Notes under the pieces: model-generated | What the model saw: the letters and a program-made list of their open reading frames with translations, nothing else | Database searches by the model: none | What the model was told of the DNA's origin: nothing | Assembly (NCBI GenBank): GCA_009192285.1 | Contig: CM018608.1 | Location: 1,708,563-1,772,562 of the forward strand | From: Morchella semilibera | Lineage: Eukaryota > Ascomycota > Pezizomycetes > Pezizales > Morchellaceae | Length of the DNA stretch: 64,000 nucleotides | Direction: 5' to 3' | Shown here: positions 1-64,000 of the stretch, piece after piece | Layout of the letters: each line of letters begins with the position of its first letter | Position numbering within the stretch: position 1 is the first letter of the stretch | Position numbers and translations under genes: made by a program

Positions 1-3000
1 GAAACATGAAATACCGGGTGTATTTTCATAGAGACAGGTAACTCCACCTCGTAGGCATAAGGGCTCACAATTCGTTTGACCGGGTAGGGACCAATTTGTT
101 TCCAGTCAAGTTTTTTCGAGGGTCGTTTTGTTTCAATATTTCGAGTCGAGAGCCAGACAAAATCGCCAACCGCATATCGAGGTGCCGGAGTCCGGTGTAA
201 GTTGGCCATCTCCTCCTGTATCTTCTGCGCCCTGAACATTTCACTTTTCAGGAAATCAACCACCTGGGACATCTCCCGTGCCAACCCATTAGCCTGGTCC
301 TCGTTCACCGTCTGTCCGTGCTGTAAAGGTCCGAATGTCATTCTCGGGTGTCTCCCATAGTTAGCCTGAAAGGGGGACATATTAGTAGTTTCGGAGATGT
401 GATTATTGGTAGCAAATTCAGCCAGAGGTAAAAAATCCACCCAGTTATCCTGTTGATATGATACATAACTTCGGAGGTACTGTTCCATAATCGCATTGGT
501 CCTTTCTGTTTGTCCATCGGTCTGAGGATGAAATGCTGTGGAATAACGAGGGGCAATTTCCAGCCGTTCACAGAGGACTTTCCAAAATTCAGCAGTAAAC
601 TGGGTCCCTCGATCGGAAACAATAGTCTCTGGTAGCCCATGTAACTTCCATACCTGTTCCAGGTATAGACGAGACAGATCCCTGGCGTTAACACTCTCCG
701 TCGTAGGAATCAAATGCTTCATTTTTGTCAACCGATCCACCACTACTGGAATGGCATTAAATCCATGACTCTCCGGAAGTCCTGTTACAAAATCCATCGT
801 GACATCCGTCCAGGGTCCTTTGGGCACCGATAGGGGGCGCAGAACTCCTTGTAGGGGATTATGATTCGTCTTCCTTCGCCGACAGGTATGGCAATTCTGG
901 ACATAGCGGTCTGTATATTTCCGCATGGTCGGCCAGTAATATTCCCGGCTGAGAAGTTCCAAAGTCTTTGATCGTCCAGGATGTCCAGCAGAGGGTTTAT
1001 CATGATACTCCCGTAGCAGGTAGAGCTTAAGTTCATCAAAATCAGGAACATAAAGAGTATTCCGGTAAAGCAATAGCCCCTCCTCGCTCTCCTTGCACTC
1101 AGCCAACGAGATCTCTTTCGATTGTCGAACGCCATTTCGGAGCATGGATAGAATTTTGTTTGGAAAGCTATCACTCTGGTAAGCTTTGTTAAACAAATCA
1201 AGTACGGGAGACGATCCTTCAGCGGGTTCATTTGACAAAGAGCCCGCTAACAAACTTATCTTTGCATCTAAATTCTCCCTCTTTAAAACCACTCGACTTT
1301 GTTGTTCCAATCTCTCATCCCCTTCCTTTGGTAAATCCTTAGGCCTCCTGGTCAGAATATCAACCTTCCTTCCCTGCTTCCCGGGCCTATATTGAATAAC
1401 GAAATTAAACCGAGACAAAAACTCCGCCCAACGGGTTTGACGTCTATTCAGCAATTTAGTCGACATAAAGTACTCAAGATTGCGATGATCTGTAAGTACT
1501 TTGACTTGAAATTGAGCTGTCTCCAAGTGAGGTCTCCATTCCTCGAAGCAACGAATAATGGCCAACAACTCCTTATCATAAATTTCGTAATTGCATTCTG
1601 CTGGCGAGTGTGTCTTGGAGAAAAAAGCGACCGGGTGCAGAACTCCTTCATCATCTCGTTGTGATAATATCCCTGCCGACACATAGTCTGACGCATCGGT
1701 TTCCACAATAAATTCCTTCTCGGGATCAGGGTGCATCAATATGGGAGCGGTGGTAAAAGCAGTCTTGAGTTTCTGAAAGGCTTGTTCAACTTTTTGGGTC
1801 CATTCAAATCGTACATGCTTTTTTGTCAGAGTAGTCAATGGCCGAGCCACTCGGGAATAAGCATAGATAAAACGTCGATAGAAATTGGCGAACCCAAGAA
1901 ATTCCTGAACCTCCTTCACTGTCTTGGGCGCTTCCCAGTCCACAATTGTCTGTACCTTAGCAGGATCCATCTTCATTCCTCCCGGAGTCAAGATCATGCC
2001 CAAATATTTTGTCTCTTGTACGCTGAATTCGCATTTCTCTGGTTTTAAATGGACCTCATTAGCTTCCAAGGCTTCCAGTACTTGCTGCACATCCTGTTGG
2101 TGTTGTTCCAAGGTCTCCGAATAAATAAGAATATCATCCAGATAAGCAGTAGCGCAACGATCCAGAAAGGGGCGAAGAATATCGTTAATCCAACGTTGAA
2201 AGGTAGCAGGAGCATTGGTTAGACCAAAAGGCATCACCAAATATTCCCAATGTCCATAGCGTGTTCGAAAAGCCGTTTTCCACTCGTCCCCTTCTTTAAT
2301 CCTAATCTGATTATATCCCCATCGTAGGTCCAGCTTGGTAAAATAATTAGCACTGGCTAAATTGGCCATCGTCTCTGGTGTAAGGGGAAGAGGGTATCGA
2401 TCCTTGACCGTAATAGCATTTAGCTTTCGATAGTCAACACACAAGCGTAAGGAACCATCAGCCTTTTTAACAAACAGCACCGGGGCGCCGGCTGGAGAAT
2501 TACTAGATCTAAGAAATCCTTTCTGCAAATTATCGGCCAAATAGTCCCTCAACGCCTTCAACTCTTCCCGTGACATACTATACATGGGACCAAAGGGTGG
2601 TACTGTTCCTTCCTGAAGTTTGATCTCATGGTCATAGGGACGATGTGGTGGTAATCTAGAAGCATTGGTCTCATCGAACAGCTGTCGAAACCGCTGATAA
2701 TCAATTGGAATCATTCCATCAGGGTTGGCAGGCAACTCCAATACTTTGTTGATAGCATAAAGGGTAGTCGAATAAATTTGCACAGTAGGGTCTTGCGAAA
2801 GTTTCTTAAACGATCGAGGAGTAATTGCCGAAATATTTGTAACAGGCCTTTCGGGTGGTGAAGTTGAAATTCCTCGAGCAACAATAGGTTTGTGGTTGGC
2901 TATGCAATGTTCAAGACACACTGATGACTGGAAGCGAATCTCATTCCTTCCACTATCAATCAAAACTCCATGCTTCCTCAGCCAAGGGATTCCCATCACA

Positions 3001-3370
3001 ATCGGGTAATGTCCCAACTTTGTAACAAAGAAAGGACACTCCTCCACATGTCCATTAATTTCCAATTCCAACGTCACCTTCCTGGTCACTTTCCCAGACT
3101 CAATAGGCCTTCCATCAATCACATCAATCTCCCTTTCAGTCCGTAAATTTTTCATCTTTAATTCATGGCGGCGCACAAAGTCTTCATCAATAAATGCATA
3201 TCCCGACGCTCCAGTATCAATCAAAGCATAAGTGGGTACAATGGATTTTTTATTTTGTGAAATAGAACACACTACAATCAGTTGATTCCCATCCATCTCC
3301 CCTTCTGATACTGAAAACGTTGAAATAGACACCTGAGAGAAAACCTTTGGAGGTCCCTGGGCTATGCCGC
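1..3370 (-). CDS. pol: Ty3/gypsy Pol polyprotein, partial at window edge
   Basis: Reading the minus strand from just past the Gag stop, one frame stays open with no stop to base 1, about 1,120 codons; its end lies outside the window. Domains appear in Ty3/gypsy order. Aspartic protease: DTGAS with the Asp codon at 3216-3218. Reverse transcriptase: VDYRKLNAIT, VMPFGLTNAPATFQ and the catalytic YLDD at 2133-2144. RNase H: ETDAS near 1697, DKELLAI and TDHRN. Integrase: an HHCC finger ending NCHTC near 885-900, then DDE residues in MDFVTG (about 790), SDRGTQF (about 612) and GQTERTN (about 504). The final in-window segment resembles the end of the integrase C-terminal domain; whether a chromodomain follows is not visible. 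The frame is -1 relative to Gag and overlaps its end, so expression probably needs a ribosomal frameshift. The intact frame suggests a young copy. Confidence 0.95.
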
Positions 3371-4612
3371 CTAGGCCAGGGACGAATCTTTTAACTCCTC
3401 CTCATCCGACAATACCTCCTCTTCCTTTTCCTTCTTTTCCTTTCTTGCTTCCAACAACGCTCCCCTCATCCTAGGTGCTGCCCTTCCCGAGGGCGAAAGT
3501 TTACAGTCTCTGACCAAATGTCCAACCCCCCCGCAGTAATAGCAACGATTCTCCACACGACGTGCCTCCCTTTCTCTGGGATCCGGACGACGGTAACTAT
3601 TAGACAAATCCATGGGAACAGCTCCCCCAGGAGTATAGGAAGGATGGGCCGCTGGCGCAGCATTCTTCGGTGGTGGTTGGGGTGGCCCTCGTACGACTGG
3701 GGATGTTGCTGGTGCAACGGGGGGACGAGGAGCAAAGGGACGCGGAGCAGGAGCACTTGGAATCTGAAAACGAAATCTCCCCATCCTGGCCTGTAGCGCC
3801 CGTTGCTTGTTATCAAGACGTTGAAGAAGCAGCCCGCAGTCCTTAATTGTGATTGGTGTTTCATTCTGAATCATCAGGGCCATTAGGTCCTGGTTAAGTC
3901 CTTCCAACAAACATTCAATCTTAGCCGCTTCGTTGAACTCAGAGTCGGCAGCGTATCGCTGAAACTCTGCAAAGTACTCAGAAAAGGTACGTTGGCGCTG
4001 CCTGATCTCCCTCAGATTTCGAGCAGCAGTGGCGGCGCGGTCTGGATCCCCAAACGCATTATCCAAAATTTCAAAAAACTCCGCCATGGAATCGAGAGCG
4101 ATTCCTTCATCTGTAATATAAACTAAAAATTGATCCGCCGCCGATCCTTCCAATCGAGAAATAGAATACGCAAGTTGTTGAGCCGCGGTAGGGAAGCGAT
4201 CCAAATTAGCCGTGAGCTTAATCTGGAGTTGTCTCTGGAAAGTCCTGAGAGTCTTGCGATCGCCCCGGTATTTCTCCGGGTCGGGTAGCTTCTCGGATTT
4301 GGATGGCTTGGTTAAGTCGTCGTGGAGCTCCTCTAAACCTCCTTTGACTCCTTCTTGCAACTTCTTGATCTTAGCCCGTAGTCCCTGGATTTCTTTGTGG
4401 AACTCGGCCCGGCCTTGTTCGGTTTCGGAGTGATGGGTGGTGATGTCGACCGCATATTGCTGGACCCCTCCGTGCGCTCTTTGGAGGAGGGCATACGCTT
4501 GCTTCGCTTCTTCCGTTGCGGCGGGGTCCACTTCAGGGTGAGCGACAAAGAACCCTTCGAGATCCGTATGGAGCTTTTGATAATCAAATGCATTGGTAGC
4601 GGGGGCGGTCAT
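3371..4612 (-). CDS. gag: Ty3/gypsy Gag (capsid/nucleocapsid), 413 aa
   Basis: A complete ORF starts at an ATG with good context (ACCATGA on the minus strand) and ends in TAG at 3371-3373. The first half is alpha-helical and charged, with a retrotransposon-gag core around residues 110-260 (RTFQRQLQIKL, RQRQRTFSEYFAEFQRYA). A Pro-rich linker follows (about 285-340). A single CCHC zinc knuckle, CYYCGGVGHLVRDC, spans residues 357-370 with C-X2-C-X4-H-X4-C spacing. The tail is very acidic and basic (KEKKEKEEE). It would package element RNA in cytoplasmic virus-like particles. Pol begins in the -1 frame over its last codons; the run G TTA AAA in the Gag frame about 20 bases before the stop is a plausible relaxed slip site. 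No internal damage is visible, which fits a recently active element. Confidence 0.95.
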   Translation of the reverse strand: MTAPATNAFDYQKLHTDLEGFFVAHPEVDPAATEEAKQAYALLQRAHGGVQQYAVDITTHHSETEQGRAEFHKEIQGLRAKIKKLQEGVKGGLEELHDDLTKPSKSEKLPDPEKYRGDRKTLRTFQRQLQIKLTANLDRFPTAAQQLAYSISRLEGSAADQFLVYITDEGIALDSMAEFFEILDNAFGDPDRAATAARNLREIRQRQRTFSEYFAEFQRYAADSEFNEAAKIECLLEGLNQDLMALMIQNETPITIKDCGLLLQRLDNKQRALQARMGRFRFQIPSAPAPRPFAPRPPVAPATSPVVRGPPQPPPKNAAPAAHPSYTPGGAVPMDLSNSYRRPDPREREARRVENRCYYCGGVGHLVRDCKLSPSGRAAPRMRGALLEARKEKKEKEEEVLSDEEELKDSSLA

Positions 4613-5200
4613 GGTGAACTATGGTGCGAGGAACTCGGACTGTGCTAGTCGAGTGAGGATGGTCTCGTCTTAGTGTGACGGAGTAACCCGACACAAAGAA
4701 GAAGATGACAATGATGACGCAGAGGGACTCGAGGAGCACAGTGTACTCGACGAGGGGGCCGATGAAGACAGGGACCACGCCAGGCAGGCACAAGCACAGG
4801 CACCGGCGAGGGCAAAGGCAAGGACAAGGGCACAAGAGCACAGAGCAGGGAGAATGAGGACCGAAGGGACCTCAACGAGAGCGAAGAGGGATACTATGGG
4901 TTTCCTCTTGTCAGAGGACCGAGTCTTTGGTACGAGAGGCTATGGCTTTAGAAATAGGAGTAGATTCCTATGTACCGAAATAACAGGAAGACGAGACAGA
5001 GAGAGAAGAAAGAAAGAACTAAGGAAAACATCTATCTCGACTATTTAACACACCTCCTCCACAAGTCCAATATGACTCACACCTCCGCTCGTAGAACCTC
5101 ATAGAAACCTGTTACTACCACACCCCGTAATCCTCCCCACCATCTCCGCTATTCTACATTACCAATCCATCACGCCATCGAACCTCCCAGAATCTAATGA
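4613..5200 (-). other. Probable 5' leader and LTR of the gypsy element (boundaries unresolved)
   Basis: This stretch lies directly upstream of Gag in element orientation and holds no convincing gene. On the minus strand it contains an AT-rich TATA-like TTAAATA near 5044-5050 and a TC-rich tract (4985-5030), which would fit an LTR promoter and start region. I could not identify a TGG-type primer binding site or matching LTR ends, because the other LTR is outside the window. The short ORFs here are low-complexity shadows. Confidence 0.35.
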
Positions 5201-15110: not shown

Positions 15111-16681
15111 GGGCCCGTTCGGACAACCTCAGATTATTGGCTGCCATAACATTCGGGGTTGCATGTAGTAGTTCTGAAAATTTAATACTCAATTACATGA
15201 AATGCACGGGTAGCAGAAAAGTCGTTATTCAGTCAGATTATACGGTCCCTAGTATCACCTACAAATCAATAAAACTGATGCAGATATTTTGGTGGCAACC
15301 GCTCCTGCCCCGCTATCCTCCGTCTTGCCCGACCCTCCCCCGCTCTAGTATGTCCCTTCGCTCGTCGCAGCAAAACCCCGAAACGCCTAGGTCTTGCCTG
15401 CATAGAACGGTAGAGTACTCGAAACAAACCATCTATAAACTATGGTGTAGGAACTTTCGGGAGGGAACAAGCGGTATTTATGCCACACACGAATTATGTG
15501 CTTAGACTCGCCTATGGCAAGGGAAGGTATATTGCCTAGTTAGAATATTTTTAAACTATATATAGTTATTAAGAAACAGAAACCAAGTTGGTATATCTAT
15601 TCAAATCTTCAAACTCTAGGTGTCCTAATCATTAAGCATTAAAGATCCTCCAATATATGAATTATCGTGGAACGTACTTCAGAAGGAAGAAGCAAACGTC
15701 GGCTCACAGAAGGGTGCGCCTCTCTCAACAGGGAAAAATTTGACTCACACCGAGAAACACGATTCATTGCGTAAATTGCCAAACATAGTTCCCTAAAGTA
15801 GCGTACATTTCGCTCCACAAGTCAATTGATTATACCAGTCCCATATTCACTTAACGCAAAAGAAGGGTTTTTTGATCTCAATTGCGAAGAACCCCCTGGT
15901 CTCTCCCATCTCATCCTAAATTGAAACTCTGACTGTGAAACTTCGACCCTAATACCAAATCCTAGAATTTACTATGCGAGCACCTGAACCACATTGTAAA
16001 TACACCCTCCGGCTTTGAGGGGAGTCAATCGGGGATTGGGTTGTGCAAGGCCCGTATTAGCGATAGTTCGATATGAACCTGGTTTTTAGGAATAATCTTC
16101 ACCCTCCCATCACCTCCGGTCCTGCCACATATATATCCAACTTCACGCCTAGTCAGCTTAGTGACCCAAACATCATGCCGAGCAGCCGTTAGTTAGACAT
16201 CAGGGCCCAAGGTTACAAATATCTGCAACTGGAAGTATAGGCTGTGTATCAATCTTGGCAACCGGGTTTGCAATTCCTGGCAGCCTTGAACATCATTGAA
16301 CCCAGTAAATTCACCAGCTTAGGCCTATTAAAACATGAGGGTACTCAGGCAGAACCGGCCAAGCCTGATCTGCTTCCGCGGGTTGGTTTGCCAACGGTTG
16401 TAGAAATCTTGAATATTTGTGGATGCCTATAGGTAGGCTCAACCTGCATGAGTTGAAGCCTAATTGCTAGCTGCACTCCCGCTGGCGGTGGGTCCGGCAT
16501 CCGCTCTTGGACCATATCATTTGTTTGAAAGCCTTGGCTATTGCCATTCGCATCGTCCGGCCTGGGGTTCATATTTTCGGAGAAGTCAGGATAGAGACAT
16601 TGCAGGCTTGTCAGATCGTGCTGTGCGGAATCATTGGATGTTCTTTTGGATTTTAAAGCTATGATGCATCCGAACGGGCCC
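15111..16681. mobile_element. Non-autonomous Harbinger-type element (GGGCCCGTTCGGA termini)
   Basis: Terminal inverted repeats GGGCCCGTTCGGA are perfect over 13 bases at 15111 and, inverted, at 16681. The same terminus with a clean TTA duplication bounds the smaller element at 49745-50096. Here the left flank is TTA and the right flank starts TA, so the target duplication is imperfect. The 1.57 kb interior has only short ORFs, none resembling transposase, so it is probably a deletion derivative mobilised in trans. Confidence 0.6.
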
Positions 16682-16855
16682 TAGAGTTTCTGCTAGTTAG
16701 AGATTTTGTGCCAGGGATCGGTTTTGGGGGGTGCTGTTTGCCCACCCAGCAAAAGGATCTCTGCAACCAGTAACTTTTACCGAAAGTGATGGTTGGCCTA
16801 AGGTTCCAATTGAGGGTATATGCGGTGGAGTGTTGGACGATACAGAGGGCATAGG

Positions 16856-17017
16856 GAGTTTAAGTTATAAAGAAAAAAAAGATCGACATAAAAAAAATAA
16901 GCATCTACTAGGTATGATACTTTCAACGCCGCCCACAGAGGCCTCTGGTACGGTATCCTAAATGCAACCGTGAAGCTGTAAACAGCGTTTGTCTGAGCAC
17001 GGTGCCGATTTTCTTTA
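16856..17017. repeat. Dispersed repeat pair, copy 1 (see 28724-28890)
   Basis: Shared words in order with 28724-28890: AAGATCGACATAAAAA, AGCATCTACTAG, GGTATGATACTTTCAACGCC, GAGGCCTC-GGTACGGTATCC and CAGCGTTT-TCTG. About 160 bp, clearly homologous but with small indels. It could be the end of an old transposon; no gene is visible. Confidence 0.75.
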
Positions 17018-17019
17018 CC

Positions 17020-18910
17020 AGACCCTCTGTTTCGCCCAACACACTCCCCCGCTCTTTCCCAAGCCCAAGTTGAAACTTTCAACATGGATGTGATAGTAGG
17101 CTTTTTGCAATAGAGTTAGCTGCCTGTTTATCTAATTAACTGCAGATGCGAACAATATCAATCGGCCTTTCAGAAAATGCGGTTGATGCTCTAGAGTAGA
17201 GCTAGTAGAGCCTCTTGGCCGGTTGCAACTTTCATCATTAGTTCTCAGAGCCGCACCTTCGGGGAGATTCACTACCCCCGCCCCGATAAGAGAAGAAGTG
17301 TGTACCACGTTGTAAATGTAACGTCGCAGCATCTTCTTAGGCCATGTTCCTCCGCCCCAAATATTCCCCTCCACCCTCTCCACATAAATTCACGTCTCCG
17401 ACCACTCCAATAATCAGCGCACCATCACCCCCCCCCCAAAAAAAAAATCCCTACCGCCTCCCGCCCTTAAGGTACCCTCAGTGCAGTATTCCACACACTA
17501 CTTACAGGCTGTGACATTTGCCTACAACGCGACTTACGTGTCGCTCCACCTGTACGCCAATCACAAGCCATGCTTCCCTCAACAAACCTGTTCGCACAAG
17601 ACTCAACTGACTCCTTCTAGTTCCAATTACATAGTCCCTTCGCGTTGGAACTTCAACTCCGACATAGGCGTCTAAAGCCTCATTCGCCCCCACTACTCGT
17701 AGCCCCTAGGAAATTCTCAACGAAGGGATCTTTCGGTACAGATTGCTGCAGATGGACGCGTCTTCTACGGGGTCTCTAGAATTCAAGTTTTCTGGGCTAA
17801 CGCTGATCTGTGGTAGCAAGTTTCTGGCTCCATCACTCACTACAGGGCCCATTGTATCCAAGGAAACCAGACAGCAACTCCCTCAAGGTCTTCTCAGGCA
17901 GGCCGAGATCACTCAACTGGCTCAGACTCTAGACCCATTCCTGGGGGCATGGTTATCAGGAGTAAGTCTAACTCCTCATAGATTTGAAAACCGTTAAGTG
18001 CTCTTATTTAATTTTAACAATTAGATGCATATTCCCCGGAAAGAGTACCATCAGTTCGCACAAATGTTGTCTATTTCATAACTCAACTTGGGTTTGAATT
18101 TCATTAGACACCCACATTTCTCTACCCCACTGCCCGGAAAAGCACCACCACTACCGCTTCCGAAAACAATATGGTGTGAGAAAGTCTTAGCCGACCGCGT
18201 GGTCTTCCTCCGTGTGCCAACCCGCCACTAATGATAAGCCCGACTACAAATACTACGCTCTCACCGAATTCACCATTAACGAATCAACTGTTAGTAGTCC
18301 CCGTTCAAGCCATTGTCACTTAGTGACCTAGCAAGAAATTCTAAACCTAAAAACTATCTCGTTACCTTATATTCTACTAACAACCTTGTAGGTCTCAACA
18401 ACACCTCAGTACTGGATTTATGCTAATAACACGTTGGGTAGTTTAAATTTTAGATATCTCTCGCCCCCCAACCATCTTCGCGCGGAATTGGGTGGGGGTG
18501 GTCTGCTCCTAGCTACTTTAGGGGCCGCTACCTGTTATTGCCACACCACCGGCAGTGTATATTCGTTATACTGTTATCAACTTCAACCTCAATTTATGTT
18601 ATTGATTTCCCATTGTGGCATAACCCTTGTCGCCTTTCTTTTCTAGCATGTAGTACGATTCCTCCAATATCCCCTAGAGCAATTGGGGCGTGTTTTCAGC
18701 TTAGATGTGTTGAAGCGTCCGAATGTCCCACAGTGATTGCCTCATGTTTTCCCAGGGAACATACCCACTATTCTATCGTCGGAATGATACTACAGCCTGT
18801 GGGATCTCTCCCTCCGCAGCTATATCTGTACTTTACAAAGTCTTGGAAGCGGCGGAAACCTACTGCCACCTAACATCAAATGCTAATACCTGTCCTCTCA
18901 TACCAATAAA
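17020..18910. other. Spacer upstream of the helicase gene
   Basis: No gene that I can support. It holds a C9 and an A9 run (17428-17446), many short unrelated ORFs and C-rich stretches. It lies directly upstream of the TATA-like box of the large gene and would contain its regulatory DNA. Confidence 0.4.
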
Positions 18911-18916
18911 AATCCA

Positions 18917-18924
18917 TATATATA
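18917..18924 (+). promoter_or_regulatory. TATA-like box of the helicase gene
   Basis: TATATATA lies about 63-70 bases upstream of the ATG chosen for the large gene, in an otherwise mixed stretch. Its position favours the ATG at 18987 over an in-frame upstream ATG at 18723, which would precede the box. Confidence 0.4.
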
Positions 18925-18986
18925 CCCCCAATCCCTACGGGAGTCATTCCAAACATCCCAAACATCAGAACATCTGCCTTATCAAA

Positions 18987-21900
18987 ATGTCTCTGAGTCA
19001 CGCACCTACCGACTCCAACGCTCATCTTTCATATCAGTGCACCAAATGTTCACGTAGCTTTGAGAGCACAAATCAGCTACACAAACACAGGCGGGTGAGT
19101 ATATTTGCCATGCACATTAATGTGAAAATATCTAACGTCAAAAGGACGCCCACCAAGGAACAATAACACTTGTCTCCGCCGATGGCATCACCATTACACT
19201 TACCCGTGATGCAATCTCCGGTCTCTTCCACTGTTGCTGTGGTTACACAGCACGTAGACCTGAGTCAGTTAGAAGACACGTTACTGTTAGAGATTCCATC
19301 CATGAACTTGGTGCCCCTCCATCTAAACGCCAAACAACTACCCACATCTCCCCACCTCCCCCCCATCAACCAGCACCCATCATGCCTCCCTCTCCAGGAA
19401 CATATCTCATTAGAACGCCTATTGCTCCCCCGGCAATGACTCCATCCACTGGGCCCATTTCAACCTCATCCATCCCAGCCGAGGGGCCAATCAATTTGAT
19501 GTTCAGTACTCCGGATGTCTCCTACGACCCCGCATCCACGCCGTCCATTCCCACGTCTAATTCATCAGATGTTTCTGACATGGCATCCACACCATCTCCT
19601 ATCAATACTATGTCGGCGAGAGGTAAGAATCAAATAACCCATCCCCTATTTTCTTAGTGCTAATACTCCTTCTCTCACTCAGCATTTGAGAAATCTCCCG
19701 CATCTCAGCCTCCCACTACAAACTCCAACTCCTCTAACAATTCACATGCTACGCTCAATTCACATGGTATACAATCTCTCCCTCAATCTTTATCACCGTG
19801 CTAACTCCCATCTATCCAGGATCTCTATCCTCTTATGAATTTTACGAGTCCCCTGCTTATGAGCTACCAGCCCACGAGCATGTACCCCCGCCGCAGCAGC
19901 AGGACATTGAACGACTTGGTACAAAACTTGGTCTCCAATATCTCTTCTCTTACAGGGTGGTTTTATGCTTCCGGTGTGAAACTGGCCTAGACTCCCGCTA
20001 TTTGGCCTCACATCTCGCTATTCACCATGGCCACTTACGTGATGATCAAGATGTGGTCAAATTTTCTGAGTTAATCGATCCTCTTCCAGTCTGTACTATC
20101 AGACTGCCACCACCTGGGTGTCCCCCTTTCGAGAATCTGAAACTTTTCGATGGCTTCTCTTGTGCCCTTTGCAATTACTCCTCTCAGGTCAAAGACACTA
20201 TAACCCGTCATATCCGAAAGGAACATCCTCAGCATGATACCGTTGCCAAACCTTCCACGATTCAAAGCTTCTTCACCGGCTTGGGCAGAAAGTGGTTTCC
20301 AGTTTCACAACCTAATGGTGATCGGATATCTAAGGGTGAGATTACAGCAGCTATGTTACAAAAAGAAAGAGAAAAATACATCTCCTTCCAGAATTCCAGG
20401 AAAGCTACCAAGGTAGGCCCAGTCAACCGTAATGAGATATCTCCTTGGCTATCACGTACTGGCTGGTTACGGCACTTCCAGGACATTGACCTTCTCGACA
20501 TTGTTCGTTATATTCAAATCCCACGGGGCCAGTACTACCAAGCTCTCGCCGCGGTTCATCTGGCAGTAGCACACATGTTCGATCGCACCTATACGATCTT
20601 TCAACAGAAGGCATGTCCCCCGACAAGAAGATGGATGAATACTTATTCAACTGTTGAGTATTCTCCGAAGCCCTTTGAGCGATTAGAGGAACCTACCGAG
20701 AGGAAATATCATGAGGTTTTTCGCAAAATCATAGTTTATCTAGTTCACATATACATAACAGAAGCCTACAAAGATGACCACCTTCAAAGACTCTTGCGCT
20801 TCACTGAGTCACAACGCAACATCCTCCAACTTATATTAGCTTCTGCTTATGACGTTGATGGTGAGGTGGATATGGTTGTCCTGGAATCCTTGACCTTTGA
20901 CCTTTGTGTATCTCTCGTTGATTACACTTTTGCAGAAACGGAAATTCAGATGGCACCGTTGCTTCATGAAGTCGCTGTCTTGGGAATCGAACCCCAAGAA
21001 GGGGCTTTTCGATCCGCCATTCTAGTATCACCTACTCTATCGGCTCTGGTTTATGTCTATCGAATGGCTCTCTTCAGGCAAGCATGTGTTCTATCAGGCT
21101 CCGACGATACCCTCATACTACCCAATTTTCTCACTCTTCACCGTAACTTCATCACTCCAACATGTGTCTCCCCTATGGGTGAAGTGATCAATCTCTTGTC
21201 ATTCAGCCTAAGTGCCGGCAAGCACGAATATGGGAAACCGGCTATCTATTGGAGCTTGGATGAGGGGGCGGAGACTATGGTATTCAGAGGGGCCGATATC
21301 AAAATGGAGACATTTAAGGGCATGGTAGCGAAGGCGGTACAGGATGCGAAAGATATACTCAGGGATGAGTTCGGTATTTCTCAAACTGACGAGCAACTCA
21401 GCCAGGATGTGTCTAATATCAAAGATGATATATCCTGTGACAACTCTAACTATAGTTTCCTGTCAGATAGGCGCAACAGGGGTCTCTTTCCTAATACTGC
21501 AGATGCAGACTCCGCTTCTCTTGATCTGATTTTTAATAGTCCTCTTCTAATGAAAAGGATGTGTCGTACTGTTGGTGATAAGATAATCTGGATCGAGAGT
21601 GGGATCAAACAGTTCTTACAATACTCAGAAACCTTTCTTGAACTCTTATTGGGAATCTTTCACTTCTTAGGAGGACAGCCTGCTCGGGGTACAGAGATCG
21701 TCAAGTTGCGTACCCACAATGGAGTTTTGGGTGCCCGGAATATCATTTTTGTCAACAAGTTGATAATGTGGGTAACTAGCTGGCATAAAGGTCAGAATAA
21801 AACCGGAAAGGGCAAGTTTATCCCACGCTTTCTTCCCACTGATATTGCAGCACTGTATATGATCTATCTCTATAAGGTTCTCCCGTTAGTTCGTTACATT

Positions 21901-24363
21901 CAGAGCTTTGATCAACCTCTCTTTGAAGACCCGGAAGATCATTATCCTAGGTATTATCTTTTTTCTAATGATGGGATGACACCATGGAATACAGCAAGGC
22001 TTTGTCGGGTCCTTCGACGTCTCTTTTGTGATACCTTTGGAAGAGATGCAGAATTTGGTGTCTTGAGCTACCGTCATATGGCGATCTCAATTAGCCGGAG
22101 ATATCTAAAGGGTAGTTTCGAAAGCAATGATGATCAAGAGGATGATGATGAACTCGATCTTCAAGCCGGCCATTCTTCTGCCACTGCAGACAGGATTTAT
22201 GGTGTGAGATCTGATCTATTGCAGGAACTTACCGAAACATCGATACAAGTTTTCGGGAAGATCAGTTTACAGTGGCATCGTCTACTCCGAGCGCCTCCCA
22301 AGCAACCGAACGAACAATATAATAAAGGTAAACTATATTCCTTCCACTTTACAACATATGATATGTATTGACTCCCGGCATTAGATGTTCCTAGTATTAT
22401 CCACAGCCAGGATCAAACACTGGCTTCGACTCAAGAAACCGATAAGATACAGAAGAGAGCCTACAACATAATCAGGACCATGTTTGGCCCTGATGCTAAC
22501 TTTAAAAGTACGGAGCAAAAAGATGCATTAATACATGTCCTTGCTGGTAAAACTACACTTGTTGTCGTTCTACCTACAGGTGGTGGAAAGACACTACTTT
22601 TCGCTGGCCCCGCATTAGAGCCTGACGCGGGCGTCACGGTCATAATCCTTCCATTTCTATCATTAATTGAAGATATGCAGCGTCGTTGTCATAGTTTTGA
22701 TTGTACTGTTTGGAATCAGAATCAACCACGGGAATCAACTATTTTATTGATTACTGTGGAATCCGCGGTAAACCCCAACTTTAGGCAATACATCAAAAGG
22801 CTACATGAAGTAGGCAGACTTGATCGTATTGTAATTGATGAGGCGCACATGCTGGTAACTAACCTATCCTTTCGGGAGTCCTTTGGCCGTCTTGATTGGT
22901 TCTCGACTATTGGAGTACCTTGCATTTTCCTTACTGCCACACTCCCTCCGTGGATGGAGGAAAGCCTCCTTGAAGCTGCACTAATTAATGATACTCCGGT
23001 CACGGTAGTCCGATCAGCAGTGTCTAGGCCGAACATATCATACCATGTTAATACACATCGTAGGGGATTCCAAGTGGAATTACTGGACAAGGAGGTTCAA
23101 GAGTTCAGAGCAAAAAAATGTGGTAAAGCGATCATATATACCCGCAGCTGTAATATGGCTGAAACGCTGGCAGACAAGTTCGGTTGTCCATACTATCACG
23201 CACAAGGACCAAACCGTACACAGATACTACGGGACTTCACAAGTGGAGTACATGATCTAATTGTCGCTACTACAGCACTTGGTGCCGGGCTTGATATTCC
23301 AGATATTAGGCTCATTATCCATTTTAAACTTCCTCATACACTCATTGATTACTCTCAGGGAAGTGGACGTGCTGGGCGAGATGGCAAACCCGCCAAATCT
23401 ATCATTTACGCCGCACCAGATGAGTTGAACAGAATGCCGGGAAGATTAAACCACGATATGAAAACTGATCTTAAAGCACTTGAAGGTTATTGTAGAACAA
23501 GTGGATGCCGGAGACTTGAGCTTGGTAACTATTTCGACGGGGCTGGAAAAGGTAGTGCATGCGTCCCTGAGCATGATGAGCTATGCGACAACTGTTCAAA
23601 GATTTTTGCTTTGGATGATGATATCACTCGTTATTTCTCACCACCTATAATCTCCGGCACTAAAAGAAAGAGAGATTTCCAGTATGATATAATTGATATT
23701 TCTTCCGATGATGGTGGGGAAATAGGAGAGGCATCAGTACAAACTCCCGGAACATCTGGTCAGCAACCCGATGTTCCTGCTCTATTACCTCGCCTGCAAT
23801 TTAAAATTGCTAATGACGCTGAATTCTGGAGAGAATTTTCTTCTAACCTTCCACTTCTGAATGGATCATGTCAATATTGCTGGATGAAGTCCCGCAATCG
23901 TAGACAAAATGACCATCATTCTTGGGACTGTATCTCTTCCTTGGCTCGAAGGAGCTTGAACTTGGATCGTCGCATTAGTAGCGATTGGCAGTCATATAAG
24001 GAATGGAGAAGCATTGTCCAGTTCGATGCCTTTACATGTTGCTATCGATGTTGTCTTCCTCTACAAGTTTGTTCCGGTACTACCAATGGTGATGAAGATA
24101 ACAAAAGAAGAGCCGGATGTTCTTATGGACCCAATGTTATCGTTCCTATCGCCTTTCTGGCTCAATTTGTCCCTCATCTCAGGGATCATATCAAAGATAT
24201 CATGAGGTCAGATGTATTCTCCACAGCAGAATATATCAAATGGGTTGGGCAGATGACATGGATACATGGTAGAAAAGCTGCCAACCTCATGCGGGTGGTT
24301 GAAGCAGCAATGGTTTTACCAGAGCATCCCCCGTATGCCAACCAATCTCTAATCTGCCTTTAA
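18987..24363 (+). CDS. Zinc-finger / tyrosine-recombinase-like / RecQ helicase fusion protein, 5 exons, 1718 aa
   Basis: Proposed exons: 18987-19094, 19145-19622, 19683-19766, 19820-22327 and 22385-24363, 5,157 nt with the stop and in frame throughout. Introns are 50, 60, 53 and 57 nt (GT..AG; CTAAT or CTAAC precede acceptors 2 and 3). Splice 1 completes a classical C2H2 finger (C18, C21, H34 from exon 1; H39 from exon 2). A Pro/Ser/Thr-rich linker runs to about residue 220. An OrsD-like pair of fingers follows (C273/C276/H288/H292 and C338/C341/H354/H359). Residues about 840-1020 resemble a tyrosine recombinase: R846 in ARGTEI, a basic hairpin (HKGQNKTGKGK), R975 in SYRHM, H1008 in GHSS and Y1017 in RIYG. 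RecQ motifs are complete: PTGGGKT (1123-1129), DEAH (1211-1214), TAT, ATTALGAGLDIP, QGSGRAGRDG (1384-1393), then the RecQ zinc-binding Cys set and a second Cys-rich tail. RecQ proteins are 3'-5' ATP-dependent DNA unwinding enzymes; subtelomeric ones are known in fungi. No break is seen. The recombinase assignment is inference. Confidence 0.85.
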
Positions 24364-24700
24364 TTCATATACTAATTCGGTCAGTCTTAGGCTCCTGTGA
24401 TACTTTATCAACATTAGTTAAAACTTTTGCAACATTTCAGCGATATTTTTTTGCTTGGTGGTTTCTGAGACTTTTTTGAAGTACTTTGTTTGCAATACGC
24501 TCTATATATGAACCTTTGTAGTATATTGCACAGGATACAAGAGATATGGGTGTGTATTATCTCACACAGGATACAGGACATACCGGAAATGGTCATGTAT
24601 TATCAACTAAAGATAATAACAGAGCGATTATGTCATCTCAAAGCTGTGTCTTAGTCATCACATCTCCAAGATCCTTTAGAGGACATAAACTCAAATACTT

Positions 24701-24839
24701 AGACCAGCTTGCCCATCAAAGAGCGCGGCCCCTCAACAAGCGTACACCCAAAATTTGGTGGGTAGCATCCGTTGCAACGGGAAAAAATAGCAGGCAACGC
24801 TCGCTGATGGGCCATGCTCGTTTATGGGCAAGCTGGTCT
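24701..24839. mobile_element. Foldback MITE, 139 bp, 6-bp target duplication
   Basis: The ends are inverted repeats AGACCAGCTTGCCCAT, perfect over 16 bases and partly matching beyond. Flanking direct repeats ATACTT lie at 24695-24700 and 24840-24845. The interior has no coding capacity. A 6-bp duplication does not point clearly to one superfamily. It sits in the 3' flank of the helicase gene. Confidence 0.75.
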
Positions 24840-24909
24840 ATACTTTTATGGAGAATTTGTTTCATATGGAATATTTGGTGTGGGATTTACCTACGGGCTG
24901 CAGCCATCC

Positions 24910-25332
24910 CTGCCCCTCCCTCCATTGCCAACATCTCTTATTTCGGTACTCCTCCCCAAAGCTTTCTGGCAAACGCCATTTTCCTCTCTTTACCCCCCCC
25001 CCTCCCCGAAGCTTTTTGGCAACATCAGCAGGCTCGTTGCCTTCCCCCAGCGCAAACCTCTCCCCATCTCCAAGCGCAAACCCCTCGCCATCTCCAAGCG
25101 CTAACCCCTCGCCATCTCCAAGCGCAAACCCCTCGCCATCTCCAAGCGCAAACCCCTCCCCATCTCCAAGCGCAAACCCCTCCCCATCTCCAAGCGCAAA
25201 CCCCTCCCCATCTCCAAGCGCAAACCCCTCCCCATCTCCAAGCACCCCTTGCCATCTCCACCTCCACCTCTGTTTCGGAGAGCACTCCTGACTTCAAGAG
25301 CAGCGATCTCGAATTAGACGAGAATGACCTGA
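24910..25332. repeat. Dispersed repeat copy 2 with 24-bp minisatellite (7 units)
   Basis: Near-identical to 5323-5636 from 24924 onward; weaker similarity extends a few bases left. It has seven 24-bp units against three in copy 1, grouped as CTCGCCA-type then CTCCCCA-type, so the extra units arose by expansion within the block. Predicted ORFs are repeat translations. The sharp right boundary (after ...AATGACCTGA in both copies) suggests one transposed or duplicated unit. Confidence 0.9.
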
Positions 25333-25575
25333 ACTTTGCCAAATATCAAAGGATTCTCCTGCCCCTGCATGCGTAACTAGTATCTTTCTCTAGGCTAATT
25401 TGCACCACAGGATGCCAAAGCGATTGAGGGCAAGGGTGAGATTATAAATCACTTGGTGCTGGGTGGGGAGGGCAGGGTGGGGGGGGGGGGGTTTAGTGTA
25501 ATCTACGGTCCGGAATTGCTCTGGGAAAACAGTAGAGTTATCGGAGGAAATGTTATAATCGTACATTCAACTAAG
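25333..25575. other. Intergenic spacer with G-run
   Basis: Contains a G-rich stretch with a run of 12 or more G near 25480. It lies past the stop of the dioxygenase gene and would hold its 3' UTR. No gene is visible. Confidence 0.4.
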
Positions 25576-26683
25576 CTACTCTAGCTTCGTGTAGTCCCAT
25601 ATATTCTGGTGATTGAAAAATACAAAGCTGGTTCTATCACCTTCAAAGTCTGTCAGATAGTGCTCCAGTAGGGCAGCCCTGAAAATAATGACATCTCCAG
25701 GCTTAAAATCAAGCTTGATTTTTAAACCCGGGATGACTAAATATCCACCACTGAAGTTACCAGCACACATCATCGTGGTATATCCATCCTTTCTGTCTCC
25801 AGAGTCCCTATGAGGTAGGACTCTTAGATTTCGGAGTACAGCTAGGCCGTGAAACGCGAATCTGCGACTAGTAGTATAAAGAGACCAACTGCCAGCAGTT
25901 CGCGTTATGCGAACACGCGAAAGTGCGCTCCAGTAATCTTGTGGGTCAACAATCTGGTATATGAGACCTAATATTTGCAGATGGGGTGCTAGCTGCTTGA
26001 AAAAGCGAATGCATGCTGCATTTCTATTTCATTAGAATTAGTATGCTATTTAGGACGGAAAAGACACGACATAGGTAAGGAGATATAGCTTCTTACTTAT
26101 AAGCAGTATCAATCAAATGTGCAGAAATCACCGGGGCTTTTGATTTTGCTTGTCCCCTAGCAAACCACCATGCGAAGTGCCAAAGACCACAGATTCCCGG
26201 TTTTTGTATCAAAGATGTGGTGACAGCAGGATTCTTTGACCCATTGTGTCGCTTATCGCTAGCTGGAGGTTTTGGTGGTGTGTACGTGTTTTGCAGGTCA
26301 GAGATAGCGGAATTTAGATCCCTGACCATTTTCTTTCCAAAATTAGGGCCAAAAGGAGCGTCAAAAGCTTGTTTCCAAAATATTATGAGATTTTCTTCAT
26401 CGTAAGATTTTATATTGATACTGGAGGTATAAAGTTGATATTTTTCTGCTGACAATAGCGGGTCTTCAATAGAAGGCGACAGTGGAAGCCGGTGCCTAGC
26501 ACTCTGTAGAATTGATGGATAGGTAAGTTCCGAGAGTTGTATAGGGATTCTTGAGAAAGGTTTAAAACAATCTCTCAAAATTCTTCTTTGTTCAGGTACT
26601 TCATGAGGTTGAGGTGGCTCCATACTGACGAGATCCTCAGCAGATTGTAGCAAGATATGGTATGCTTCGGAAACAGAAGACAT
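25576..26683 (-). CDS. TET/JBP-like Fe(II)/2-oxoglutarate dioxygenase, 2 exons, 344 aa
   Basis: Proposed exons on the minus strand: 26683-26097 and 26023-25576, separated by a 73-nt intron with GTAAGA donor, TACTAAT branch-like motif and TAG acceptor. The joined frame is open for 344 residues. The exon 2 core shows H267-R-D269 in VLPHRDSGD, then GNFSGGYL, a PGDVIIF turn, H317 in LLEHY and R326 in GDRTSFVFF. This is the HxD...H iron triad plus the 2-oxoglutarate-binding Arg, in the order and spacing of the TET/JBP family. Known members oxidise 5-methylcytosine or thymine in DNA; in some fungi they are expanded and linked to transposons. The N-terminal ~200 residues lack a recognised domain. 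The first in-frame ATG is at 26683. The gene faces the helicase gene tail to tail, about 1.2 kb away. The DNA substrate is inferred from the family; an unrelated prolyl-hydroxylase-like role is possible. Confidence 0.75.
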
Positions 26684-26713
26684 AATCAAAAGCAAGCTAA
26701 AAGAACAACAAGA

Positions 26714-26769
26714 GGTAACCTTACACCCTTGTTGATCTCTAACTAAATAATATATCGGTAACCTTACAC
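26714..26769 (-). promoter_or_regulatory. Paired 13-bp direct repeat upstream of the dioxygenase gene
   Basis: GGTAACCTTACAC occurs exactly at 26714-26726 and 26757-26769, within 90 bases upstream of the ATG at 26683. It could be a duplicated regulator-binding site, or a target duplication around a 30-bp insertion. Confidence 0.4.
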
Positions 26770-26819
26770 AATATATTTATTTAGCTGCCTATTTTCAATT
26801 ATTGACTTGCTGTCGGGTC

Positions 26820-26882
26820 GGGGGGTAAGGGAGTGGGATAGGGTGAGGGAGTGGGATAGGGTGAGGGAGTTAGAGAATGGGG
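26820..26882. repeat. 18-bp short tandem repeat
   Basis: GTGGGATAGGGTGAGGGA is repeated about two and a half times, with G-rich flanks. It lies in the dioxygenase promoter side. The minus-strand ORF across it encodes LTLSHS repeats and is not credible as a gene. Confidence 0.75.
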
Positions 26883-26999
26883 GGTGATGGTAGTTATATA
26901 TACGCGAGGGGAGAGCTGATACCAACATACAACAACGACGCCGTGACTCATTCGATCTCTTACCGACCCACCATGAAGAACCGATACAACTCTCTTTCA

Positions 27000-28550
27000 T
27001 AAAAACAGCTAACTACTCCTATAACCTTTCCGCACTTTATCCAGTCCGCGCAACGCCAAATTTAGTGATGGCCACTGAGCTTGCCCACCAGAATGAAGCA
27101 ACGAATTCGGTTGTGATGGAAATTTGATTAACTCGGCATCCGATTGCTCGCATTATGGTATCTACTTTGCTTGACTCGCCGTGAGGCTCAGGATTTAAGG
27201 ATCCGGAACGACTCTCTGTTGTTTGTTCATTCGACTGTACTGGGTTGGGTAAATTAATCTGTGCTTGTAGTTCCTCTGGAATTTGGGCGTCTTCACGTCT
27301 CCTTATTTGGCGTAGCAATTCTACCAGATTAAACGGAACAAGACCGCTTTTGCAAAACCAGATACTGCGTTTGATCAGGCGCAGGATACTTCGCGTGGAG
27401 GAAACAGAATATGGGGAAATCGTCGTTCCTTCCTAATCATATATTGGAAATTTGTGACGGCTTTTTTATATCTTGGAGTTAGAGGGCCAAAAACACTTCA
27501 GCCTAAAGGCTAGGTACGGTGTGATGTATATGTAGGTAAACAGAAGGGAATAATATGATGGTCTATAGTGAAATCAATGACATGAAGCTCAATTCACATC
27601 CATCGAGTATGAACCTTCGCCAATCACTAGGATTGCTATAAAGATTATTAATGTATCTAGAAGTTGTTTTAGAGATAATAGTCTAACGTACTCAATTATC
27701 CATCGGGTTTCAGGCTCACTCACTGTCTCGATCCACACCTATGCTCGGTTTTTGCTCTCTAAATGGTAGGATTAACATAATCTCCGTATATAGAAATAGC
27801 TTCTACTAGTGAACATGACTCTCGGTCGGTATATTCTTTATACGTTTTGTCCGGATCCGTAGAATGAACAGCCCTTCTCCTGGTATTTCCAATTCCAAAA
27901 TGCAAAGGCTTTTCACCCACATTCCATATCCTCTTTCGTACCACAATATTGTAAGATTTCCTGTAATTACGATACTGTGAAACGTCAGACATAAAGTATT
28001 AAACTTAAATTTTATATATTATGATTCTACCTTCTTAAAAAAATCCACCATATTGTTCCAATCTTCAGACTTGGCTTGATTCTTGTTTTTATTGTTGCAA
28101 TATGTAAAACGGATGGAATTCTTATGACGTTTGAGAAAGACGTGAAACAAGGCAGTTCTAAGTTGGGACTACCCGTATTTCTGATACCTTTTTGCATAAT
28201 AAAATCTGCTCCATGTGTTATTTGCTCTCGATCAGCAGGAATATTCCACATGTCCAAGAAATCCAATCTTTCCGCCAATGAATTTCCTCCCGCTCCTGTT
28301 TGTAGTACTATGACTCACCGGTCACGTATTCATCTAGAAGGATCTGCAATGTGTCTTTGAAGAGGTCATCTAGATATCCCATACTACCGAGCAGTTGTCG
28401 CAGCATGAGGATGCCTATGCAAGCCGCTATTTGGATTGTTGTATTCCTTCAATTTTGCGTAGTACGAGGATAGTGCTGAATACGATCTTTCCCCACAACC
28501 AAACTCCTCGTCATTATTGATTTCTGGACTGTTAGATAGCGTTAGTTAGG
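27000..28550 (-). other. Unassigned coding-like fragments
   Basis: Three minus-strand open stretches occur (27037-27318, 27759-27992, 28027-28278), plus a short open segment around 28310-28400 beginning MLRQLLGSMGYLDDLF. They could be exons of one degraded gene, but I could not build a continuous spliced frame and recognise no domain. The stretch has no other gene. Confidence 0.3.
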
Positions 28551-63000: not shown

Positions 63001-63060
63001 GATTGATAATTAGTGCCTCGAATCAACCGTGGGGCCATAGGAATCACACGTATAGGATCG
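60015..63060. repeat. Telomere-proximal G-rich modular satellite
   Basis: About 3 kb of imperfect modules: TGGCGCCTGGGATTGACTCT, GGGGACATGGAAATGAAT, GATAGCTGGCGCCTGGGA and TGCCATGACATGCTGG-type words in changing order, unit length about 30-33 bases. The plus strand is G-rich, the same polarity as the telomere. ORFs (mostly minus strand, QSQAPA/IPGAS repeats) are shadows of the modules. Confidence 0.9.
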
Positions 63061-63164
63061 ATTAGTGTCACATACTCAAGACAAGCAATTATACCATTGT
63101 ACAGTGGGTAGGGAAGAAATTCATAGGCCGAAGGATATTCCGAGTGATATTTCATGACTGGAAT

Positions 63165-63835
63165 AGTTCATTGTGGACTGATGCAATGTGGAGGACAGTG
63201 CATGACCGTAGAATAATGTGCAAGACAGTGCCTGACCGTTTAATACTGTGGAAGACCGTGGGTGACCATTTTGTGGTGTGCAAGACCGAGGGTGAACGTT
63301 TTGTGGTTTGCAAGTGCGGAGGTGACCGTAGGTCACCGGAGTTAGTTAGGGTTGAACCGTTTCGCGTGTGCAAGACCGTGGGTGACCGTTTTGTGGTGTG
63401 CAAGACCGAGGGTGAACGTTTTGTGGTGTGCAAGTGCGGAGGTGACCGTAGGTCACCGGAGTTAGTTAGGGTTGAACCGTTTCGCGTGTGCAAGACGTGG
63501 GTGACCGTTTTGTGGTGTGCAAGACCGAGGGTGAACGTTTTGTGGTGTGCAAGTGGGAGGTGGTGCACCGGAGTTAGTTAGGGTTGAACCGTTTCGCGTG
63601 TGCAAGACCGTGGGTGACCGTTTTGTGGTGTGCAAGACCGTGGGTGACCGTTTTGTGGTGTGCAAGACCGTGGGTGACCGTTTTGTGGTGTGCAAGACCG
63701 AGGGTGAACGTTTTGTGGTGTGCAAGTGCGGAGGTGACCGTAGGTCACCGGAGTTAGTTAGGGTTGAACCGTTTCGCGTGTGCAAGACCGCGGGTGACCG
63801 TTTTGTGGTGTGCAAGACTGTGGGTGACCGTTTTG
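63165..63835. repeat. Subtelomeric 30-bp repeat with 120-bp higher-order unit
   Basis: The basic unit GTGTGCAAGACCGTGGGTGA + CCGTTTTGTG (30 bp) alternates with a GAGGGTGAACG variant and a 60-bp module. That module contains GGTGACCGTAGGTCACCGGA, then GTTAGTTAGGGTTGAACCGT. The telomere-like word starts at 63341, 63461, 63573 and 63753, spacings 120, 112 and 180 bp. Open frames through it (VCKTVGDRFV repeats) are not genes. Confidence 0.95.
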
Positions 63836-64000
63836 TTAGTTAGGGTTAGTTAGGGTTAGTTAGGTTAGTTAGGGTTAGTTAGGGTTAGTTTAGTTAGGGT
63901 TAGTTAGGGTTAGTTAGGGTTAGTTAGGGTTAGTTAGGGTTAGTTAGGGTTAGTTAGGGTTAGTTAGGGTTAGTTAGGGTTAGTTAGGGTTAGTTAGGGT
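63836..64000 (+). repeat. Telomere, 10-base unit TTAGTTAGGG
   Basis: About 16 units run to the last base; the last 100 bases are ten perfect units. Three irregular units occur near the inner edge (one TTAGTTAGG, one TTAGTTTAGTTAGGG). The G-rich strand points to the window end, as at a chromosome terminus. Most filamentous fungi have TTAGGG; here every hexamer alternates with TTAG. Confidence 0.97.

Follow-up and report, generated by a model that had tools for sequence, protein, structure and literature searches.

The window analyzed here, 64,000 nucleotides at the end of contig C6 of Morchella semilibera (contig positions 1708563–1772562; the genome has 56.8 Mb in 23 contigs, labelled C1 and so on), ends in a telomere and encodes a predicted protein in which an OrsD domain, a region resembling the catalytic core of tyrosine recombinases, and a RecQ helicase follow one another. 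The features below are in window coordinates.

18987..24363 (+): whole gene, 1,718 amino acids (aa) in five exons (predicted splice model)
18987–19094, 19145–19622, 19683–19766, 19820–22327, 22385–24363 (+): exons (predicted splice model)
18987..19094 (+): first exon, with a putative N-terminal C2H2 zinc finger (zf-C2H2, E 7.6e-4, 20.2 bits, under the Pfam cut-off of 25.2)
19933..20229 (+): OrsD domain PF12013, residues 262–360 (Pfam, E 3.6e-12)
20230..21570 (+): stretch between OrsD and the recombinase-like core, conserved with paralogs
21571..22263 (+): tyrosine-recombinase-like catalytic core, residues 808–1038, with R846, K880 or K884, R975, H1008, and Y1017 (profile comparison and conservation)
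22328..22384 (+): predicted 57-nt intron, GT..AG, containing the in-frame stop 22369–22371 (splice model)
22385..23595 (+): RecQ helicase core (PTGGGKT, DEAH, QGSGRAGRDG) and putative RecQ zinc-binding region (Pfam, PDB, motifs)
23824..24327 (+): Cys-rich C-terminal region kept in paralogs (38% identity to locus L019, 28% to L021)
63835..64000 (+): telomere array (TTAGTTAGGG)n, terminating the contig (repeat match)

Gene model and copies in the genome

The predicted introns all run GT..AG (50, 60, 53, and 57 nt), and the exon content of the model matches the open reading frames (ORFs) of paralogs, giving the order zinc fingers/OrsD, recombinase-like core, RecQ, and Cys-rich tail. Both helicase motifs and overall similarity identify the region encoded from 22385 onward as a RecQ helicase; its top PDB matches are RECQ5 (2.1e-32) and Escherichia coli RecQ (1oyw, 1.6e-31). 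The RecQ_Zn_bind model (cut-off 25 bits) scores 24.8 in the window, 27.9 in the C3 copy, and 22.5 in the C1 copy, and C4 is absent among the matches listed.

The original prediction placed the core in the same frame as RecQ. This is true of three paralogs but not of the raw window sequence, in which the stop codon at 22369–22371 splits the gene into two ORFs; the stop sits inside the predicted 57-nt intron. The C3, C1, and C4 paralogs lack any counterpart of this stop and carry OrsD, core, Walker A, DEAH, and QGSGR each within one uninterrupted frame (1,662, 1,452, and 1,990 aa, respectively); since they join all three parts without a break, the fusion of OrsD, recombinase-like core, and RecQ is real. 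The same predicted intron and the paralog frames (1,452–1,990 aa) are the grounds on which we rejected a pseudogene for the window copy.

A search of the genome with the core returned ten matches, representing six loci (C6, C3, C1, C4, C2, and C16, the last matched as two exon pieces) and three fragments (C23, C20, and C16:1012180). OrsD (PF12013) occurs at a minimum of seven genomic places, the six gene loci and C20 at 3983961; because six of the seven coincide with the core loci, OrsD, core, and RecQ are found together at all six. In the C2 and C16 copies the three parts are spread over several frames, with stops inside the RecQ match of C2 and the OrsD match of C16 that reflect either introns or decay. 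The copies are divergent, 34–51% identical to the window, and core and RecQ identities vary in step (C3, 48/53%; C1, 48/55%; C4, 42/43%; C2, 35/38%), a trend broken by C16 (core 42–49%, RecQ 38–44%). The core search of the genome found no near-identical full-length second copy.

The recombinase-like core

The four motifs that first suggested a tyrosine recombinase, GGQPARGTEI (21670–21699), HKGQNKTGKGK (21784–21816), LSYRHM (22063–22080), and GHSSATADRIYG (22168–22203), all lie inside 21660–22205 as originally described, and numbering along the five-exon model reproduces the candidate residues R846, K880 (given as a lysine near 880), R975, H1008, and Y1017. These stand in the same R-K-R-H-Y order as in XerD, Cre, and lambda Int. 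The spacing from His to Tyr is 9 residues, as in XerD; the other spacers are longer than those of E. coli XerD (R-K, 34 versus 24; K-R, 95 versus 75; R-H, 33 versus 23). The window protein also differs from these enzymes in having an acidic insert between R975 and H1008, in lacking the His of HxxR, and in its fusion to RecQ.

The expectation that R846, R975, H1008, and Y1017 would be invariant among homologs held in all six divergent copies of this genome with all three parts, and K880 is likewise kept in each. Alignment A1 comprises the core of five copies (35–48% identical to the window) and has 279 gapless columns, of which 50 are invariant, these five included; the chance of any five gapless columns all being invariant is about 1.6e-4, and the five had been named beforehand. 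The K880 column is the sole invariant one among 13 Lys columns of A1. The C16 copy, outside A1, also retains R, K, R, H, and Y, so that with K880 as the lysine the series Arg I, Lys, Arg II, His/Trp, Tyr is complete in six of six copies. Among the fragments, C20 retains R, H, and Y; C23, which has a stop, spans the Lys part and retains K880; and in C16:1012180 the His is replaced by Tyr.

Profile comparison was carried out against 16 bacterial and phage tyrosine recombinases: XerD, lambda Int, and Cre, together with 13 phage integrases from a listing of 30 out of 269 lambda Int-like records (two of the 13 being the longest frames of unannotated records). With hhalign, A1 scored 37.3 (P 2.1e-4); none of 300 column shuffles reached this score (mean 14.1, SD 2.2, maximum 22.1), and the reversed alignment scored 14.2. 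When 16 segments of up to 290 aa along a four-copy alignment were compared with the recombinase profile, scores rose over the core (601–890, 21.2; 701–990, 32.6; 801–1090, 34.6; 901–1190, 25.3) and fell to 12.9 for segment 1001–1290, which shares just the C-terminal 38 core residues. The remaining 11 segments scored 12.8–18.6, those in 301–790, between OrsD and the core, being at background (16.2–17.0). R846 and R975 aligned to the arginines of XerD boxes I and II, and H1008 and Y1017 to the GH and Tyr of that enzyme in two of three alignments (segment 801–1090, and A1 with permissive realignment).

An hmmsearch of PDB (177,635 sequences) placed integrase 3nkh at the top (E 0.031 with A1, 0.017 with alignment A3), in an alignment that runs through R975 on the arginine of 3nkh LRH; the sole further match was a chromo-domain protein (E 0.46–0.49). 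In the reverse direction, a hidden Markov model of the 16 recombinases, run against 499 ORFs of loci in the genome (some loci overlapping), ranked the C3 copy highest (E 0.009–0.014, over three loci that overlap), followed by C2 (0.17–0.19). We judge homology of the middle region to tyrosine recombinases very probable.

Several results weigh against reading the region as a recombinase, or as an active one. The hhalign probability is only 46%, and global alignment of A1 put the His-Tyr box in the wrong place. The PDB E-values for 3nkh (0.017–0.031) are marginal. In the reverse search an unrelated ORF of locus L060 came third (E 0.31), the window copy had E 2.9–3.5 and C4 5.4, and C1 was absent to E 10. 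The Phage_integrase profile (PF00589), which the original prediction had proposed as a check, matches neither the core copies nor anything else in the genome, and none of the recombinase models of Pfam, PHROGs, and NCBIfam matches the copies scanned singly. An AlphaFold model of the single window sequence (pLDDT 37, pTM 0.23) was too low in confidence for a usable fold. The first His of HxxR (His-II), correctly noted at the outset as Leu in the window, is L, D, A, A, S, and I across the six copies. In the profile alignment the residue opposite XerD's catalytic Lys is K884, a Lys in four of six copies (C2 has I and C16 has T), and not the invariant K880; either may thus be the catalytic Lys. 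We saw no core-binding domain and no target site, and no mobile-element ends or terminal repeats in window 15500–27500.

The likeness could in principle be convergent or due to chance, in which case the helical domain would be unrelated and the protein an ordinary telomere-linked helicase, as the failure of every single-sequence family search to find a recombinase, the weak PDB E-values, and the poor rank of the window copy in the reverse search would allow. The 300 shuffles, both arginines in register, an integrase at the top of the PDB search, and the invariance of the named residues make this very improbable. A tyrosine-recombinase-like core is supported by profile score (37.3 against a shuffled maximum of 22.1) and residue invariance; PF00589 does not match it.

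Alternatively, the fold may have been kept and catalysis lost, leaving a domain whose sole role is to bind DNA, such as telomeric junctions, on behalf of the helicase. The absence of His-II from all six copies, the loss of the aligned K884 from two, and the lack of mobile-element ends in window 15500–27500 would fit such a binder; R, K880, R, H, and a Tyr exactly nine residues beyond the His are nevertheless present in six of six copies at 34–51% identity, and the Tyr in particular speaks against it, because a mere binder could do without one. We regard this alternative as unlikely, and give catalytic activity of the core an even chance.

Single-sequence searches of PDB and Pfam with the core gave no match; scans of viral and prokaryote contigs with the A1 profile found no relative; and two degenerate DNA patterns found none either, returning four loci, two of them with E >0.5 at best. 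Weak family matches, each to one member, were set aside as unrelated or unnamed: the glycosyltransferase model NF002756 (the best, E 0.0043), two unnamed PHROGs (E 0.036 and 0.31), NF008525 (E 0.057), and Pfam DUF4720 (E 0.085).

Chromosome ends and flanking DNA

The telomere repeat is the 10-mer TTAGTTAGGG. Exact three-unit matches number 251 (135 forward, 116 reverse; reversed control, 0), and the first 100 of these include arrays at both ends of C1–C4 and at the start of C5, which makes nine of nine contig ends within that listing, in addition to the window end. Among 13 listed papers that contain the string, no paper on a telomere with this repeat was recognizable from titles and the openings of abstracts. 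Repeat arrays of 20, 30, 70, and 120 bp lie directly inside the telomere (window 60070–63836).

Measured from locus bounds set by hand, four gene copies are 14 kb (C2), 32 kb (C3), 39 kb (C6), and 46 kb (C4) from a telomere, in mixed orientation relative to it; the C16 copy lies 26 kb inside a contig end. On C1 the gene sits in the interior of the contig, at 5.74 of 7.34 Mb, and 23 kb from an interstitial telomere tract (5770041–5770140); this tract is oriented like a right-hand end and so may mark an old chromosome end or join. As a multi-copy RecQ gene near chromosome ends or telomere tracts, the gene qualifies as a telomere-linked helicase. Interstitial tracts among the first 100 matches are C1:1462166, 1519381, 4005228, and 5770041; C2:4063791; and C3:32122 and 2666591.

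The gene flanks contain small repeats spread genome-wide, and the 3′ end is partly duplicated: window 23941–24913 recurs at C6:1706699–1707642 (93.6%) and window 24909–25332 at C6:1713870–1714198 (95–96%), the two pieces being separated by about 6.2 kb with Ty3-type retrotransposon frames. The second 3′ copy, 25 kb away, holds the final ~140 codons only, with a stop. Looking for element ends turned up this truncated copy and no transposon boundary; the duplication shows subtelomeric segmental duplication, not recombinase action, and we found no recombination product. Within the interrupted duplicate, window 3–4618 (−) has two long frames that by eye resemble Ty3-type pol and gag, and the flank pieces share 5 bp (24909–24913), as a target duplication would.

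These data bear on a further possibility, overlapping the explanation that we favor below: that the protein is the active recombinase-helicase of an autonomous, telomere-targeted transposon of a new type and not a host gene. Six copies and three fragments, the truncated second 3′ end, and the union of recombinase and helicase in one protein, reminiscent of Helitron Rep-helicase logic, would suit such an element; the lack of a near-identical full-length copy and of terminal repeats in window 15500–27500 does not, and the truncated copy looks like segmental duplication rather than an element. We think it improbable that the gene is of this kind.

Known systems, proposed function, and neighboring genes

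RecQ genes with links to OrsD and to telomeres have been described before. Several fungi carry telomere-linked RecQ helicases at their chromosome ends (PMC5576322, PMC4522978, PMC12857005); in Ustilago, lack of telomerase is accompanied by up-regulation of some of them (PMC10532341). Telomere-associated subtelomeric repeats of Colletotrichum contain helicase and DUF3505 domains (PMC5576322), the OrsD gene of Metarhizium corresponds to one encoding a recQ helicase (PMC11457142), and Ustilago UTASa contains RecQ while the adjacent UTASb contains an OrsD domain (PMC10532341); the portions of these three accounts available to us name no tyrosine recombinase. The telomere-linked helicases of Fusarium are likewise multi-copy genes at chromosome ends, with frames of ~3.5 kb that are shorter than the window gene, and the words "OrsD" and "recombinase" do not occur in the text of that report (PMC12857005). 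In the open literature, as far as its accessible portions extend (PMC12857005, PMC10799480, PMC4522978, PMC5576322, PMC10532341, PMC11457142, PMC3627910, PMC8381367, PMC12210899), we found no paper on a tyrosine recombinase and RecQ in one fungal protein, though one may be in print elsewhere; in PMC10799480, both terms are confined to the reference list.

Cryptons, which are DNA elements of fungi, rely on a tyrosine recombinase (PMC12210899), and Academ and AcademH transposons carry a RecQ or related helicase (PMC3627910, PMC10799480). The suggested link to Cryptons is not shown; PF00589 is without a match in this genome, and no Crypton-type short-repeat ends were seen within window 15500–27500. 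Cryptons are not known to carry a RecQ helicase, and the Academ/AcademH transposase is a DDE-type enzyme, not a tyrosine recombinase. Starship captains, the tyrosine recombinases of giant fungal elements, are a different family and are not known to be fused to RecQ. Helitrons fuse a strand-transfer Tyr enzyme to a helicase; their parts are an HUH nuclease and a Pif1-type helicase, unlike the window protein. Motifs similar to those of the core may occur in ascomycete proteins of the OrsD-RecQ kind.

The recombinase-like region is real and conserved and sits within a helicase family that is already known; its function is inferred. Our preferred explanation, to which we give a probability of about 0.6, is a telomere-linked OrsD-RecQ helicase whose middle part is a divergent, perhaps active, tyrosine-recombinase catalytic domain. 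In such a protein the zinc fingers would pick the DNA site, and Y1017, assisted by two arginines, one lysine (K880 or K884), and H1008, would attack a DNA phosphate to form a 3′-phosphotyrosine link; RecQ could unwind or remodel the joined DNA and so allow strand exchange or copying. Subtelomeric DNA, the gene itself included, would in this way be recombined, integrated, or amplified, and the protein may move or reshuffle it, acting as a selfish element or else providing a back-up system for telomere maintenance. That OrsD-type telomere-linked helicases of fungi in general are active tyrosine recombinase-helicases and, as an undescribed class of chromosome-end recombinases, integrate subtelomeric DNA or swap it, seems rather doubtful. 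A recombinase joined to RecQ would give the telomere-linked helicases of fungi a possible DNA-rearranging activity and could explain the spread of their genes among chromosome ends; a recombinase active site predicts that one tyrosine is essential for any DNA rearrangement that they cause.

Downstream of the gene, window 25576–26028 (−) encodes a Tet_JBP oxygenase domain (PF12851, E 1.9e-14), and window 24700–24840 is a 141-bp MITE-like repeat with 44-nt inverted arms, present in more than 20 copies, most 90–97% identical, on several contigs. A family with no Pfam match, probably JmjC-like by its motifs, is convergent with the RecQ gene at L019:451–2310 (C3) and L022:5–1554 (C2); it also occurs at C20:3984881–3985935, beside the OrsD place C20:3983961, and at C4:172197, near the RecQ match C4:169090, in both cases no more than a few kb from these OrsD or RecQ pieces. 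Most of its 29 matches lie away from copies of the RecQ gene.

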